NCBI RefSeq assembly: GCF_000337555.1
Contig: NZ_AOIO01000034.1
Span: 162,914 to 226,913, forward strand
DNA from: Natrialba asiatica DSM 12278
GTDB taxonomy: Archaea; Halobacteriota; Halobacteria; Halobacteriales; Natrialbaceae
Direction: 5' to 3'
DNA length: 64,000 nt
Part shown: positions 260 through 52,902 of the stretch, piece after piece
How positions within the stretch are numbered: the first letter of the stretch is position 1
Layout of the letters: every line of letters begins with the position of its first letter
The notes under the pieces: model-generated
Told to the model about the DNA's origin: nothing
Database searches by the model: none
Seen by the model: only the letters and a program-made list of their open reading frames with translations
Position numbers and translations under genes: made by a program

Positions 260-559
260 ATGACAGATCAAAGGCCACGCAAGTCCTACGGATGCGAACT
301 CAGTCGGCGCGTCCGGTACGATCGAACAGCATCGGAACCGCCGAGTATCGCCGCCGCGACAGCACTGGCACGCTTCCGGGACGAAGACGTGACAGCAGCT
401 AGCACCCGTCTGTACGATTACGTCGACCCCGAGGCCCTCGATGCCCTCTTCGAGGAAACGAACACGGGGATGCCACGGTCGGTCGAAGAGGTGACGTTCC
501 GCGTCGACGACGCCGCAGTCACCGTCTATCCGGAGGAGGTCGTCGTCTCGGCTGACTGA
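260..559 (+). CDS. HalOD1 output domain protein
   Basis: A 99-residue protein with the haloarchaeal HalOD1 pattern: an early region predicted helical (SIAAATALARFRDEDVT), a central DYVDPEALDALFE segment and the closing strand pair EEVTFRVDDAAVTVYPEEVVV. In this family the domain occurs alone or at the end of sensor and regulator proteins and is thought to be an output or interaction module; no enzymatic activity is known. The gene stands alone, 57 bp upstream of a nucleoside phosphorylase on the same strand. The family assignment rests on pattern recognition; a role in signalling is inference. Confidence 0.75.
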   Translation: MTDQRPRKSYGCELSRRVRYDRTASEPPSIAAATALARFRDEDVTAASTRLYDYVDPEALDALFEETNTGMPRSVEEVTFRVDDAAVTVYPEEVVVSAD

Positions 560-615
560 CGGCCGACTCCGTCGCTCTCGAATCTTTTTTCTCGCCACCC
601 GCGGAAGGCGACGGT

Positions 616-1344
616 ATGGGTACACAACCACATCTACTGGTTGAGGAGGGTGACCTGACCGATATCGCACTCGTCCCCGGGGACCCCGGTCGCGTCGACC
701 GGATCGCAGACCACTGCGACGAGTCCGAGACGGTCGCTCAGAACCGCGAATACAAGGTCGTCAACGCCACCTACGAGGGTCGCGAGCTGACGATCTGTTC
801 GACCGGGATCGGCTGCCCCTCGGCCGCCATCGCCGTCGAAGAACTCGCGAACGTCGGGGTCGAGACCTTCGTTCGCGTCGGAACGACCGGCGCGCTCCAG
901 TCGGGCATCGAGATCGGCGACATGATCGTCGCCAACGGGGCGGCGAAGAACGAGGGCACATCGAAGCGTTACGAGGACGTATCCTACCCGGCCGTTCCGT
1001 CCTACGACGTGCTCTCGTCGCTCGTCGACTCGGCGGAAGCGAACGACGAAGAGGTCCACGTCGGCCCGATCGCCTCGGACGACGCGTACTACGCCGAGAC
1101 CGACGCGTACATCACCGACTGGGAGGACGCGGGGCTGCTCGCCGTCGAGATGGAAGCCGCATCGATCTTCACGCTCGCTCGCCGGAAGGGGCTGCGCGCC
1201 GGCGCGATCTGTACCGTCGACGGCAACCTCGTCGAGGGAACCCAGAAGGGAACCGATACCGAGGACGACGAACTCCCCGAAAAGGCAAAGAACAACGTCG
1301 GCCGTGCGATCGATATCACACTCGAAGCGGCGACCGGCCTGTAG
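616..1344 (+). CDS. nucleoside phosphorylase (uridine/purine phosphorylase family)
   Basis: A 242-residue enzyme of the PNP/UDP phosphorylase (NP-1) family, which splits nucleosides with phosphate into base and ribose 1-phosphate for salvage in the cytoplasm. Visible motifs are the phosphate-binding VPGDPGRVDRIA (about 20-31), STGIGCPSAAIAVEEL (62-77), RVGTTGALQ (87-95) and the ribose-binding AVEMEAASIF (176-185). Length is normal for the family. Start ATG at 616 directly precedes the conserved N-terminus. Whether it prefers uridine, inosine or adenosine cannot be told from sequence alone, so no gene symbol is given. Confidence 0.9.
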   Translation: MGTQPHLLVEEGDLTDIALVPGDPGRVDRIADHCDESETVAQNREYKVVNATYEGRELTICSTGIGCPSAAIAVEELANVGVETFVRVGTTGALQSGIEIGDMIVANGAAKNEGTSKRYEDVSYPAVPSYDVLSSLVDSAEANDEEVHVGPIASDDAYYAETDAYITDWEDAGLLAVEMEAASIFTLARRKGLRAGAICTVDGNLVEGTQKGTDTEDDELPEKAKNNVGRAIDITLEAATGL

Positions 1345-44105: not shown

Positions 44106-46094
44106 ATGATGGCTACACAGGAGTCCGTCGCCCACGAGGCGCGATTACGGGCGCAAAACATCGGTGGGATCGACGAGACGACAGTCGAACTCGAATCGGG
44201 GATTACCGTCCTTGCAGGACGAAACGCGACAAACAGAACGTCGCTTCTCCAGGCGTTTATGGCCGCTCTCGGGGGCTCATCAGCCTCCCTCAAGGCCGAC
44301 GCCGAGGAGGGGTACGCCGAACTCGAACTCGACGACCAGACCTACACCCGGACGCTCCGACGAGCGGGGAACTCCGTCGTCACCGACGGTGAGCCGTATC
44401 TCGACGACCCCGAACTCGCCGACCTCTATGCGTTCCTGCTGGAATCGAATCCGGCCCGCCGCGCCGTCACGACCGAAGACGACCTGCGAGAGATCATCCT
44501 TCGACCGGTCGATACCGACGAGATCGAGCGCGAAATTTCGCGACTGACCGACGAGAAAAACGAAATCTCGAACGAACTCGACCGTCTCGACTCCCTGAAG
44601 AACGACCTCCCCTCGCTCGAACAGCAACGTACCGATCTCGAGGGGAAAATCGAGGACAAACGAGACGAACTCGAGGCCGTCAAAGCGGCGATCGAAGAGG
44701 CCGAAGCGAACGCAGACACCCAACAGGAGGGCCAGGACGAACTCGAGGAGAAACTCAGCGAACTCCGAGAGCGACGCTCTACGCTCGAAGACGTCCGATT
44801 CGACCTCGAAACCGAACGCGAGAGCCTCTCCGCCCTGCGCGAGGAACGCGACGACCTCGAAGCCGAACAGGAAGACCTCCCCCCACTCGACTCGCTCGAC
44901 CGCGAGGAAGTCGACGCCGAAATCGACCGACTCCAGCGCCAGTCCCAGTCGATCGACGGGGTTATCAGCCAACTCCAGAGCATCGTCCAGTTCAACGAGG
45001 AGATGCTCGAGGGCTCTCACCCGGAGATCCGACAGCTGCTGGCCGACGACGACACCGAGTCGACCGACCAGGCGATCACCGACCAGCTAGTCGACGAGGG
45101 AGCGGAAACCGTCCGCTGTTGGACCTGCGGCAGCCAGGTCCAGCGCAGCGAGATCGAAGCGACGATCGATCGCCTTCGCGAACACCAAGAGACCAAACTC
45201 AGCGAGCGCGACGACCTCGAATCCCAGATCGAATCCCTGCGCAGCGAACGGCGCGAGATCGACCAGACGCGACAGCGCCACGAGCGCGTCGACAGACGAC
45301 TCGACTCCGTCACCGACGAAATCGAACAGCGCGAGACCCGACTCGACGACCTCACCGATCGTCGCGAAGAACTCGAGAGCGAGATCGACGACCTCGAAAC
45401 CGAGGCCGCCGAACTCGAAGCCGAAACCGACGACGACACCGAAGACGGCGACGAAGAGAGCCTCCTCGAACTCAACCGCCGCGCGAACGAACTCGAGTTC
45501 TCCCTCGGCAGACTCGAACGCGACCTCGAAACGACGACCGACGACATCGAGGACATCGAATCCACACTCGAGGACGAAGACCAGCTCGAGCAGCGCCGCG
45601 ACGAGATTCGCGACGAACTCGAGGAACTCCGCACTCGGATCGACCGGATCGAGCGCGAGGCCGTCGAGTCGTTCAACGAACACATGGACGCCGTACTCGA
45701 GGTGCTCGAGTACGAGAACATCGACCGGATCTGGATCGAACGCGTCGGCAAGACGGTCCGCGAAGGTCGACGGAAGGTCGAGCAGACGGCGTTCGACCTC
45801 CACATCGTCCGCAGTACGGCAGACGGCAGCACGTACGAGGACACGATCGATCACCTGAGCGAGAGCGAACGGGAGGTCACCGGCCTGATCTTCGGGCTCG
45901 CCGGCTATCTGGTCCACGAAGTCTACGAGGAAGTACCGTTCATGCTACTCGACTCGCTCGAAGCGCTCGACTCGAACCGTATCGCGGCACTGGTCGAGTA
46001 CTTCGAATCCCACACCGACTTCCTCGTCGTGGCACTGCTGCCCGAGGACGCGACAGCGCTCGACGACGAGTACGATCGCGTGACCGAAATCTAG
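44106..46094 (+). CDS. archaea-specific SMC-like coiled-coil protein (Sph type, RdfA partner)
   Basis: 662 residues. Head halves flank about 430 residues of Glu/Arg-rich coiled coil. The Walker A is GRNATNRTS (38-46), with Arg instead of Lys. The hinge contains C338-W-T-C341, like a Rad50 zinc hook. The C-terminal head shows LSESEREVTGLIFGLAG in place of the LSGG signature, and Walker B is LLDSLEALDS (D616, S617), lacking the catalytic Glu. These changes are, as I recall, common to the haloarchaeal Sph family, linked to cell shape. ATG 44106 (or 44109) fits the TATA box. It is convergent with rdfA. Confidence 0.9.
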   Translation: MMATQESVAHEARLRAQNIGGIDETTVELESGITVLAGRNATNRTSLLQAFMAALGGSSASLKADAEEGYAELELDDQTYTRTLRRAGNSVVTDGEPYLDDPELADLYAFLLESNPARRAVTTEDDLREIILRPVDTDEIEREISRLTDEKNEISNELDRLDSLKNDLPSLEQQRTDLEGKIEDKRDELEAVKAAIEEAEANADTQQEGQDELEEKLSELRERRSTLEDVRFDLETERESLSALREERDDLEAEQEDLPPLDSLDREEVDAEIDRLQRQSQSIDGVISQLQSIVQFNEEMLEGSHPEIRQLLADDDTESTDQAITDQLVDEGAETVRCWTCGSQVQRSEIEATIDRLREHQETKLSERDDLESQIESLRSERREIDQTRQRHERVDRRLDSVTDEIEQRETRLDDLTDRREELESEIDDLETEAAELEAETDDDTEDGDEESLLELNRRANELEFSLGRLERDLETTTDDIEDIESTLEDEDQLEQRRDEIRDELEELRTRIDRIEREAVESFNEHMDAVLEVLEYENIDRIWIERVGKTVREGRRKVEQTAFDLHIVRSTADGSTYEDTIDHLSESEREVTGLIFGLAGYLVHEVYEEVPFMLLDSLEALDSNRIAALVEYFESHTDFLVVALLPEDATALDDEYDRVTEI

Positions 46095-46236
46095 CGCTCA
46101 CGTCCGGTACCCGTTCTGAACGCAGCGGTCCGATTTTCGAGATCAGTACTCCCCCGAGCGTTCCGCAGACTGCCGCGAGTGGCGGCCAGTATTCCGCAAC
46201 TTGAAATCCGATCACGGTTCCCGATCGAAGCCCGAT

Positions 46237-46264
46237 CCCATAACAATAGTACGCCTGTTATGGG
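46237..46264. terminator. 9-bp hairpin between the convergent SMC-like and rdfA genes
   Basis: CCCATAACA and TGTTATGGG form a perfect inverted repeat around 10 nt, 143 nt after the SMC-like stop and 75 nt after that of rdfA. Its symmetrical place suggests a two-way terminator, or a binding site. Confidence 0.45.
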
Positions 46265-46338
46265 TTGTTCGAGAAGAAAGGTAGTCTGCGGCTCAAACGG
46301 CACCCGGACACCGACGGTCTCCGCGCCACCGACTCCCG

Positions 46339-47076
46339 CTACGACTCATAACAGTCACACGCACCCGATTCCAGCAAGTCCGCTACGTCGTACTGTTTTC
46401 CACACCGTTCACACAGTACCTGCACGTCCGCGAAAACCCGGCGCGGACCGACCCGCAATTGATCCGTCTCCTGCAGTCGATCGAGTTTACTCTCCGTGAC
46501 CGAGACCGTTCGCTGGCGCAATTCCTCGATCGTTCGGGCCGTCGCCGCTGCGCTCGGGCCGTCAGTGCCCGACGGCGCAGTGACGTTTCGATACCCCGTC
46601 AAGTACGATCTGATCGCCCCGTACGAGACGAACTCGTCGGTTACTGTCTCGACAGCGACGCCATCCCGTTCGAGTCGCCGTTCGAGCTGCGTTCGTTCGC
46701 CGCGGCTCCCGGTTTCTCCGGAGAGCACCGCATAGAGATGCGAGACGTCTTCCGTGATCGTTTCGATCCCTGCCGCCGTGAGGACCGCCCGCAGCAGTTG
46801 CTCGTTGAACCAGTCCGCAAGCGATCGAAGACTCGCATCGGTTTCGGGATTCGTCCAGCGGACCTCGAGTTCATCGCCGACACCTGCAAGTTCGCGGTCG
46901 TACTCGGAGATAAGTCGGGCGACCTTCGGTTCGGGACCGGGTTTCGAACGCGATGCGGTGGCGTTCGATGCCGGCGTGGGCGCATCGGATTCAGTCGGTG
47001 CGGGAGGGTCTTTCTGGGGTTCCTGTCCCGGGTTATCGTGAGTGCTCCGGTCGGGGCTCTCATCCTGATCGTCCAT
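46339..47076 (-). CDS. rdfA: rod-determining factor RdfA
   Basis: 245 residues from ATG 47076 (MDDQDESPDRSTH). After an acidic, disordered N-terminus, the RdfA core starts near residue 45 (SKPGPEPKVARLISEYDREL) and includes LADWFNEQLLRAVL, ERRLERDGVAVETV and the FVSYGAIRSYLTGYRNV segment. A C-terminal zinc-binding tail has C222, C225, C240 and C242. In Haloferax volcanii RdfA is needed for rod-shaped cells. The reading frame is open upstream beyond 47076 but with no conserved sequence. Confidence 0.9.
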   Translation of the reverse strand: MDDQDESPDRSTHDNPGQEPQKDPPAPTESDAPTPASNATASRSKPGPEPKVARLISEYDRELAGVGDELEVRWTNPETDASLRSLADWFNEQLLRAVLTAAGIETITEDVSHLYAVLSGETGSRGERTQLERRLERDGVAVETVTDEFVSYGAIRSYLTGYRNVTAPSGTDGPSAAATARTIEELRQRTVSVTESKLDRLQETDQLRVGPRRVFADVQVLCERCGKQYDVADLLESGACDCYES

Positions 47077-47359: not shown

Positions 47360-48130
47360 TTATCCGTAGGCGAGTGTGACCCTGATCTCCCCGGCTTTGT
47401 CCCGGAGGCGATTCGGGAGGGCGTCGTGGACGTACTCGTCCGTAAAGCGACTCGTCGGGCCGAACACGCTCAGCGCGCCGAGGAGGTCGTCGTCGGGCGT
47501 ATAGACGGGGACGGCGACGCTCCGGAGGCCGTCCATGTGTTCTTCGTTGTTTACGGCATACCCACGATCGCGGATCCGCTCGAGTTCGGCGGCGAGGGCG
47601 TCGGGATCGGTGATGGTGTTGTCCGTAATCGCGTCGAGGCCGGCCGTCGCGACGAAATCGGCGACGGTGTCGTCGTCCCATTCCGAGAGGATCACCTTGC
47701 CGGAGGCGAGCGAGTGAAGCGGTCTGCGTTTGCCGATCATGGTATCGGAGAGGCTGCCGTACCGGTGGACGTAGACCCCCTCGTACTCCTCTTCGACGAT
47801 GAAAACGGCGCGTTCGTCCGTCTCCTTGCCGAGCTCGAACACCGAGCGCTTGGCGGCGGTGTAGCCGCGCCGTCGGGTTCGCGCCTGCTCGCTGATCTCG
47901 AGGAAGCGAAAGCCGACGTCGTAGGCGCCGTCGCGTTCGACCACGTAGCCGAGATCGACCAGCGTGGTGAGGTGGCGATAGACGGTGCTCTTGGTGAACT
48001 CGGTTCGACGCGTGAGTTCGGTGATCGTCACGCCGTCTGCGTCCGCGAGCGTCTCGAGGATTGCGAACGTCTTGCGGGTCGTCGAGACACCCGCGTCGTC
48101 CCGTTCCCCTCGGCCGCGGTCCCTGCTCAT
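47360..48130 (-). CDS. IclR family transcriptional regulator
   Basis: 256 residues from ATG 48130 (MSRDRGRGERDD); ATG 48151 is an alternative. N-terminal winged HTH (about 20-75: VTITELTRRTEFTKSTVYRH) and the IclR effector domain (GKETDERAVFIVEEEYEGVY, LHSLASGKVILSEW, DRGYAVNNEEHMDGLRSVAVPV). Effectors of this family are often aromatic or small organic acids. It is 143 bp downstream of glutaryl-CoA dehydrogenase on the same strand, and probably controls the surrounding degradation genes. Confidence 0.93.
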   Translation of the reverse strand: MSRDRGRGERDDAGVSTTRKTFAILETLADADGVTITELTRRTEFTKSTVYRHLTTLVDLGYVVERDGAYDVGFRFLEISEQARTRRRGYTAAKRSVFELGKETDERAVFIVEEEYEGVYVHRYGSLSDTMIGKRRPLHSLASGKVILSEWDDDTVADFVATAGLDAITDNTITDPDALAAELERIRDRGYAVNNEEHMDGLRSVAVPVYTPDDDLLGALSVFGPTSRFTDEYVHDALPNRLRDKAGEIRVTLAYG

Positions 48131-48273
48131 ATCGAGAGTATTCCGCGGCATCTCAATGAATGTTCCGAATAATAAAACAGAATCTGCGGAGTGTGAAACG
48201 CGAGGGAGAACGCGGTGAACCGGGCGACCGACCGGGAACGAGGAGAAGAAAAGAACGGCCGCACACGGACGGG

Positions 48274-50679: not shown

Positions 50680-52902
50680 ATGACTACTAGTAGCCGCCTC
50701 TCCCGCCGTGCCCGACAGTCGCTCAGTGGAATCGGTCCGCTGGATGCCCTCACCGGGATCGTTTACTTGCTGGGCTTGGCGTTAACGTTGTTGACTATCG
50801 GATACGCGATGAAAATCGCGTTCGCGATCCAAACCGACCTGTTCGCGGAGACCGACGAGTACGTGAACGTCTTCCTCGGACTCGGGCTGGCGCTGTACTA
50901 TTTCGAGTATGCTCGCACGCAGTACAGTGATTCTGCCACAGGCGACGATGTCGCGACCGACCCTTCTGGGGGGGACACGGCCCAGACGGCCGATACCGCC
51001 GGTACGGGGCGAACTCTTCGGTCGCTCAAAGCAGCGTACGCACGGGTTGATCCAATTATCGCCCTCTTACTGGGTGTGGCGGCGATCGGTGCAGTGCTGT
51101 ACGTCCACACCAACTACGTTCGGTTGACCGAGTCGGCACACCTCCTCGGATATAATACGACCGACCATCTGGTCGGTCTACTCTTGATCACGCTGGCGAT
51201 CGACGCGACGCGACGGGCGTTCGGGAACGTCATCGCGGCCGTCGCCGTCCTCTCTATCGCCTACGCCCACACGGCGGTCGGGCCGAGCTTGCCGGGCCTG
51301 TTCTACCACACCGGAATGACCTGGGAAACGATCGCGGAAAACGGTGCGATCAGCGTCAGCGGCGTCTACGACGAGACCCTCATGCGGATCGGTTCGACGT
51401 GGGTCGCGATCTTCATCATGTTCGCCGGTATCGCCAAGGCGTACGGCCTGATGGATTTCGTCCTCGATGTCGGTCGTGAACTCGGGACGAGTCTGCGGAC
51501 GGGCGTCGTGCAAATCGCCGTCATCGCGAGCATGGTCATGGGATCGATCACCGGAAGCGCCGCGGCAAATACGGCAACGACTGGAAGTTTCACGATTCCG
51601 ATGATGAAAGATCAGGGCGTTCACGACGAGTTCGCCGCCTCGATCGAGGCGGTCGCCTCCGCCGGTGGACAGATGTTGCCACCCGTGATGGGGGTTGCGG
51701 CGTTCCTCATGGCTGACTTCACCGGCGTCAGCTACGTCGAAATCGTTCAGGCCGGAGTCGTCCCCGCAGCGCTGTTCTATCTCAGCGTCTGCATCGCGGT
51801 CCACTTCACGATCCTCAAGTTCGGCTGGGTCTCACGGGACTTGTCAACGTTCGACTGGCGGGCACTAGTCGGTGGACTTCACTTTACGATCCCGATCGGC
51901 GTGCTCCTCATAACACTCGTCTACCTGCAGTACACGCCGCTTTCGGCCGGACTGTATACCATCATCACGCTCGTCGGCGTGATGTACGTCCGAAATATCC
52001 TCGTCGGCGTCTTCGACGTGGGCGAGGAAGATATCACGCTCGAGATCGGAGAGACGAGCATTGCGGGAGACACGATCGGCTGGAACGTGCTCGCGACGAC
52101 GAAGCAGACCCTGGACGGCCTCAAACAGGGCGGCACCGAGATGGCACCGTTAGTCGGCGTCCTCGCCGCGATGGGGCTCATTATCGAACTGCTCGAGGGA
52201 ACCGGCCTCACCCAGGGGATTGCGACGACGATTATCGGACTGGGCGACGGAGTCTCCCTCTTTGGACTGGGAAGCGGGCTCTTCATCGTCCTCTTCCTCG
52301 CGATGATCGCGAGCATCATGTTCGGTCTCGGAATGCCCACGCCGGCGGCGTACGTCCTCGTGGTCGTTCTGGTCACGCCCGGGATCATCGGTATGGGCGT
52401 GCCCCAGATCACGGCACACATGTTCGTGTTCTACTTCGCGATGCTATCGGCGATCACACCACCGGTCGCAATTTCGGTCGCGATCGGCTCTCGGATCGCG
52501 GATTCGAGTTTCCTGCAGTCCTGTCTGCAAGCGCTCAAACTCGGTGCACCCGGGTTCGTGATTCCCTACGCGTTCATCACGAATAACAGCCTTATCGACT
52601 GGTCCGGCGAAACGCTGATCGCGTTCCCAGTCGTGCTGGCGGGGACCATCGGGCTGATCGTCGCGACCGTCGGCTTCGACGGGGCTCGGGACCTCTCGGT
52701 TCCGGCTCGCGGGCTCTACGTCGTCGCGGCGCTCTCTGCGATGTTCGGATCGGTCGTCCACGTCGCAGCCCAGATCGTCGCCGCGGCCGCCATCGTCGGC
52801 GTGTTGCTCCACGCCCGGCTCGTCGTCGGGTACGAAATGCCGGCCGAAACCGACACTGACGCCGACGCCGAACCCGCCATCGACACGCCGACCGGCGACT
52901 GA
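50680..52902 (+). CDS. TRAP transporter fused permease (4TM/12TM type)
   Basis: 740 residues with many transmembrane helices, combining the small and large TRAP membrane subunits as usual for TAXI systems. Conserved segments: IFIMFAGIAKAYGLMDF, MVMGSITGSAAANTATTGSFTIPMM (in pieces), LPPVMGVAAFLMADFTG, FGLGMPTPAAYVLVVVLVTPG and FYFAMLSAITPPVAISVAIGS. It uses an ion gradient, in halophiles presumably Na+. The gene starts 6 nt after the binding-protein stop: one operon. Confidence 0.93.
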   Translation: MTTSSRLSRRARQSLSGIGPLDALTGIVYLLGLALTLLTIGYAMKIAFAIQTDLFAETDEYVNVFLGLGLALYYFEYARTQYSDSATGDDVATDPSGGDTAQTADTAGTGRTLRSLKAAYARVDPIIALLLGVAAIGAVLYVHTNYVRLTESAHLLGYNTTDHLVGLLLITLAIDATRRAFGNVIAAVAVLSIAYAHTAVGPSLPGLFYHTGMTWETIAENGAISVSGVYDETLMRIGSTWVAIFIMFAGIAKAYGLMDFVLDVGRELGTSLRTGVVQIAVIASMVMGSITGSAAANTATTGSFTIPMMKDQGVHDEFAASIEAVASAGGQMLPPVMGVAAFLMADFTGVSYVEIVQAGVVPAALFYLSVCIAVHFTILKFGWVSRDLSTFDWRALVGGLHFTIPIGVLLITLVYLQYTPLSAGLYTIITLVGVMYVRNILVGVFDVGEEDITLEIGETSIAGDTIGWNVLATTKQTLDGLKQGGTEMAPLVGVLAAMGLIIELLEGTGLTQGIATTIIGLGDGVSLFGLGSGLFIVLFLAMIASIMFGLGMPTPAAYVLVVVLVTPGIIGMGVPQITAHMFVFYFAMLSAITPPVAISVAIGSRIADSSFLQSCLQALKLGAPGFVIPYAFITNNSLIDWSGETLIAFPVVLAGTIGLIVATVGFDGARDLSVPARGLYVVAALSAMFGSVVHVAAQIVAAAAIVGVLLHARLVVGYEMPAETDTDADAEPAIDTPTGD

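Follow-up and report, generated by a model that had tools for sequence, protein, structure and literature searches.

The SMC-like proteins termed ASRPs, which include Sph1 and Sph2 of Halobacterium and ClsN of Sulfolobus, were defined by Yoshinaga et al. (2022), and a zinc hook is found in nearly all of them (PMC9389158). ClsN organises the chromosomes in Sulfolobus (PMC9764264). In Haloferax volcanii, sph3 and rdfA (HVO_2175-HVO_2174) are adjacent genes of the same two families as the pair studied here, which is convergent; deletion of either leaves cells that form disks only and do not swim, with no growth defect (PMC10869688, 2024). The requirement of RdfA for rod shape was shown only for HVO_2174, while across 24 genomes 42 of 54 RdfA and 42 of 50 SMC-like proteins were found adjacent (PMC10869688). 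Both the ASRP-RdfA pairing and the need of sph3-rdfA for H. volcanii rods are already published. In the same species, deletions of sph2 and sph3 have opposite shape phenotypes, sph2 and sph4 could not be deleted together, and gene conversion was lowered in all four sph deletions (PMC11276520). The word "Walker" is absent from the text of PMC10869688, and no report of altered ATPase residues in Sph/ASRP proteins was found in the literature searched, in which subscription journals were covered in part; nor did this literature yield data on ATP binding or hydrolysis by any haloarchaeal Sph.

The gene pair and its two products

The window, that is, the whole stretch of 64,000 nucleotides of Natrialba asiatica DSM 12278 that was analysed, contains an ASRP gene and an rdfA gene lying tail to tail, about 245 bp apart (Table 1). 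The coordinates, motifs and arrangement given in an initial annotation made from the sequence proved exact on rechecking. The SMC-like protein matched the NCBIfam ASRP profile NF045487 with 676 bits over profile positions 1-593 (cut-off 300 bits), and its neighbour belongs to the RdfA family, with 225 bits against Pfam PF21811 (cut-off 27 bits). The former is not a Rad50, since Rad50 profiles, with cut-offs of 700-1087 bits, gave 14-72 bits over the coiled coil. The genome contains one ASRP gene and two RdfA genes; among named relatives, Natrialba aegyptia and N. taiwanensis come closest, at 98% identity. Within the haloarchaeal Sph (ASRP)-RdfA module, the window pair is an ordinary representative.

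Table 1. Features of the ASRP-rdfA pair, with positions in the window.
Feature	Position	Strand	Remarks
ASRP / Sph-type SMC-like gene	44106..46094	+	662 codons + stop; NCBIfam ASRP profile match
ABC head halves	residues about 9-135 and 535-662	+	ASRP gene 44106..46094
Walker A, altered, GRNATNRTS, residues 38-46	44217..44243	+	sequence
Zinc hook CWTC, residues 338-341	45117..45128	+	sequence
ABC signature, altered, LSESE, residues 584-588	45855..45869	+	sequence
Walker B/D-loop, altered, LLDSLEALD, residues 614-622	45945..45971	+	sequence
rdfA (RdfA family)	46339..47076	-	245 codons + stop; Pfam RdfA profile match
Zinc-knuckle-like CxxC...CxC of RdfA, Cys 222, 225, 240, 242	46351..46413	-	sequence

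The head halves of the ASRP are linked by a long antiparallel coiled coil with a central zinc hook. In its AlphaFold2 model (pLDDT 88, head mostly above 90), the hook is predicted between helices and the head matches those of condensin, cohesin and Rad50 (Z about 21 over 300-390 residues). The SMC/Rad50 layout with a CxxC hook, as annotated initially, is thus in line with the predicted head fold and with the CWTC motif, in which C338 and C341, together with G342, are invariant (57-59 aligned ASRPs). All three ATPase motifs indeed deviate, as had also been claimed. Walker A has Arg44 for Lys and Asn43 for Gly, the signature has Ser587 for its second Gly, and Walker B keeps Asp616 but has Ser617 for the catalytic Glu, with Glu619 two places beyond; both Walker sites, with R44 and S617, could be aligned. 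The H-loop switch His, outside the three motifs first described, is absent as well (VVALLPED, versus VVSHD in the Rad50 of the same genome). Read from its sequence, the window ASRP lacks the residues for ATP hydrolysis. The Rad50 of this genome is canonical (GVNGSGKST, LSGGE, ILDEPT and CPEC), which argues against a sequencing or alignment artefact.

Among the described proteins, Sph2 of H. salinarum, encoded beside rdfA on pNRC200, has the same Arg, Ser and Ser (GRNATGRTS, LSESE, LLDSLEAID, hook CWTC), but it keeps the Gly before the Walker A Arg and its RdfA gene lies upstream on the same strand. Sph1 of H. salinarum is likewise an ASRP with an adjacent RdfA, a zinc hook and no catalytic Glu, but it retains the Walker A Lys (ASNFQGKSS) and has LSEGE and LLDG (LLDGIGQLA). 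Rad50 shares the head fold, the CxxC zinc hook and the antiparallel coiled coil, and differs by its canonical motifs with the H-loop His, its longer coiled coil and its partner, Mre11 instead of RdfA.

The window RdfA was modelled as a helical protein with a C-terminal beta-knuckle (pLDDT 86). Its C-terminus had been annotated as zinc-binding, and the zinc-knuckle-like cysteine set found there is consistent with such a role, C222, C225 and C240 being at least 90% conserved among 54-56 RdfA proteins. Across the family, the N-terminal cysteines vary and the C-terminal CxxC is kept. No convincing match emerged from a fold search of the PDB (Foldseek E 0.47 and VIA Z 5.0 at best, the latter to helices of P450) and a profile search of solved structures was negative, so that no function is read from the fold. 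The second RdfA gene of this genome is unlinked (contig 17, near 51702-52280; L021 / L100), has no ASRP neighbour and outscores the window RdfA; an N-terminal CxC in its product (SSCGCKVGR) corresponds to GPEPKVAR in the window copy (46342-47076). Unlinked copies like it (L212, L214) are also retained in N. aegyptia and N. taiwanensis. The closest relatives of the unlinked RdfA elsewhere are linked to an ASRP, and its partner may thus have been lost.

Distribution and order of the ATPase substitutions

The altered site is widespread, Arg and Ser being the usual residues at these places in the haloarchaeal clade. Among 147 aligned ASRPs, Walker A carries Arg in 115 and Lys in 32, and the 115 Arg types have Ser at the Walker B Glu site in 111 cases and Ala in one, three being unreadable. 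In these Arg types, R44 and S587 are 100% conserved and D616 and S617 97%, against a column mean of 60%; the figure for D616 and for Asp622 of the D-loop is 97-98%, and the ATPase motif sites rank among the most conserved positions of the protein. Such strong constraint, together with an intact predicted fold, marks a changed site and not a decayed one. The combination of Walker A Arg and Walker B Ser is, as judged from this conservation, a fixed divergence held by selection, and the term "degraded", used for the signature at first, is wrong for these motifs. The altered ATPase is not peculiar to the window pair, nor is it supported as an explanation of the pair, since it is common to most ASRPs and RdfA also adjoins methanogen ASRPs with intact Walker A Lys and Walker B Glu.

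The ASRP tree suggests an order for these changes. Methanogen ASRPs (L088, L090, L091) have intact GK and DE, yet already carry the signature Ser and lack the H-loop His. In the Sph1 clade GK is kept, but Gly, Arg or Asp stands in most members where the Glu would be, and the D-loop Asp has usually gone as well. Proteins of the Sph2-4 clade carry Asn ahead of the P-loop residue, and most of them combine Arg with Ser (NR/DS); six proteins inside this clade have Lys, with Ala at the Glu site in three (L109 and the pair L122/L127) and Ser in the others (L147, L150 and L152). Arg is thus almost always paired with Ser, and two separate lineages pair Lys with Ala. About three Lys/Arg changes are required by parsimony, and with so few events the coupling of Arg and Ser is suggestive only. 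Of the three substitutions, only those at the Walker A and B sites accordingly co-vary; strict co-variation of all three was rejected, the signature having changed before the other two. On this tree the change appears stepwise, with an ancestral change of the signature, Sph1 types that mostly lost Glu and kept Lys, and Sph2-4 types that lost both.

The window ASRP falls in a clade of 19 Natrialbaceae proteins (support 1.0), which the tree does not group one-to-one, with good support, with any of the Haloferax copies; the distances are 1.19-2.86, and HVO_2175 itself is not among the copies compared. HalOD1/DdfA was not found beside one Haloferax copy (L210; three ORFs scanned), and the Haloferax copies in the tree are therefore left without certain Sph2, Sph3 or Sph4 names. 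It is not clear from these comparisons that the window ASRP has a one-to-one orthologue among the Haloferax paralogues.

Linkage and co-inheritance of ASRP and RdfA

An RdfA gene lies within 600 bp of 121 of the 143 distinct ASRPs, upstream on the same strand in 82, convergent in 27, downstream in 6 and divergent in 6; the remaining 22 comprise 17 without a nearby RdfA and five with too little flank. The convergent arrangement initially annotated is hence true of the window locus and is the usual one in its clade, but it is a minority layout overall. In 391 haloarchaeal genomes, for which the lists of ASRP and RdfA genomes were compared by hand, both families occur in 346, RdfA alone in five, ASRP alone in none and neither in 40, those devoid of both being spread over at least six haloarchaeal families. 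The neighbourhood, whose absence would have spoken against the shape-control complex initially proposed, is thus strongly conserved, and so is the co-occurrence. Some close relatives of the window ASRP, among them those of Halopiger, Natrialba swarupiae and Natrarchaeobius, have no adjacent RdfA but still have an unlinked one in their genome; loci close to that of the window at which the convergent rdfA has been lost in this way are L163, L164, L165 and L166.

The trees of adjacent ASRPs and RdfAs agree (r = 0.91). In multi-pair genomes only, r was 0.83, versus 0.21 when partners were shuffled within genomes, and one of 5000 shuffles reached a value as high; agreement that persists under this comparison indicates joint inheritance of the two genes. 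This co-inheritance is due in part to physical linkage. The two genes stay adjacent although their layout changes, and they are absent from the same genomes, both of which speak for a functional tie. Contact between the two proteins is not proved by their linkage or shared inheritance.

RdfA-like genes also adjoin ASRPs in three methanogen genomes (L088:6390-7148, L090:3889-4545 and L230), although RdfA has been described as haloarchaeal. As in the window, the RdfA-like gene is the neighbour of the ASRP, but these ASRPs have both Walker motifs intact (GK in A, DE in B) and the RdfA match is weak. In the independent Pfam search, the methanogen proteins (L088, L090, L091) scored 35.9, 26.3 and 21.9 bits, only the first being over the cut-off, and a second profile, which contains methanogen RdfA sequences, is circular for such matches. 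RdfA neighbours beside ASRPs with intact Walker motifs suggest that, unless there was transfer between lineages, the partnership predates the ATPase change and is independent of it.

Other neighbours were considered as well. An IclR-type regulator gene adjoins rdfA in the window (47360-48235, minus strand), and one also lies beside H. salinarum sph1. IclR was rejected as a third partner, as it occurs at only 35 of 89 long-flank loci, often on different sides, and is common in haloarchaea. No phage relative of the window ASRP was found. Many ASRP-RdfA pairs sit on secondary replicons, and the record of the Natronosalvus amylolyticus plasmid NZ_CP101160 opens with a ParA-family gene, a hypothetical gene, an ASRP gene and a convergent rdfA in succession (L205:329-4542), which hints at a tie to plasmid partition.

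Possible function of the pair

We consider it probable, on balance, that the window ASRP acts within this module as a non-hydrolysing or slowly switching zinc-hook scaffold with RdfA as its partner, feeding into cell shape and genome maintenance. From a mechanistic point of view, the ASRP would dimerise through its zinc hook and its heads may engage with a nucleotide or similar ligand bound, with little or no hydrolysis, so that, instead of working as a motor, it would form a scaffold or tether that is stable or switches slowly. The product of the linked rdfA gene, which is small and predicted to be helical with a zinc knuckle, may be its dedicated partner or regulator, presumably by direct contact. 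The module would then act on cell shape and genome maintenance like its Haloferax relatives. The non-cycling nucleotide binder or zinc-linked scaffold first put forward is in line with the predicted abnormal ATP cycling, the hook and the linked RdfA, but the ATPase change does not stand as the cause of the pairing. Shape control by the window pair would be an extrapolation from Haloferax, where paralogues act oppositely, and is unproven.

Hydrolysis might instead persist with relocated residues, Arg44 serving for Lys, and the catalytic Glu being replaced by Glu619 or by a residue that RdfA contributes. Three places beyond the Walker B Asp, 111 of 115 Arg types indeed have a Glu, versus 5 of 32 Lys types, which makes a relocated catalytic residue possible, and the retention of D616 and Asp622 is in keeping with it. 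However, the protein also lacks the H-loop His and the canonical Gly of the signature, and Sph1 types, which lost the Glu, have no acidic residue at the later place but mostly Gly. A Lys to Arg change in Walker A usually abolishes or strongly cuts hydrolysis in P-loop ATPases. We therefore regard an ATPase of this kind as unlikely. It is very improbable that the two genes are mere neighbours, hitch-hiking on a mobile or conserved segment: flanking SDR, DUF3006 and acyl-CoA dehydrogenase genes are also conserved in Natrialba relatives, but adjacency is maintained in four orientations and many unrelated neighbourhoods, and the lack of any genome with ASRP alone, the co-absences and the methanogen pairs all speak against it.

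The main role of the module could also lie in DNA tethering or recombination, as with Rad50 or ClsN, and the effect of its relatives on shape would then be indirect. The lowered gene conversion in all four H. volcanii sph deletions (PMC11276520), the chromosome organisation by ClsN (PMC9764264) and the frequent location on secondary replicons, once beside a ParA-family gene, are in line with this, whereas the clean disk-only, non-motile phenotype of rdfA and sph3 deletions with growth unaffected (PMC10869688) and the opposite shape caused by sph2 deletion are not. We hold this to be a rather unlikely primary role. The scaffold with an RdfA partner remains the reading that we prefer. It may be extended, tentatively and with a good deal of doubt, to a history in which haloarchaeal ASRPs lost ATP hydrolysis stepwise, through loss of Glu in the Sph1 and Sph2-4 branches and then the Lys to Arg change in Sph2-4, with the head fold, the hook and RdfA kept. 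Arg44 and Ser617 would form a coupled substitute site holding the heads in one state, and an SMC motor would have become a zinc-hooked scaffold with RdfA, in a partnership older than the haloarchaea.

The clade-wide loss of Lys and Glu, with an older RdfA partnership, is the part that specialists might not know. SMC and Rad50 proteins are generally treated as ATP-driven machines. A large and old clade that conserves a non-canonical site and retains the fold would offer a natural test of SMC-like function without hydrolysis, and would make the mechanism of Sph and RdfA in shape control and gene conversion testable through point mutations at two residues, R44 and S617.
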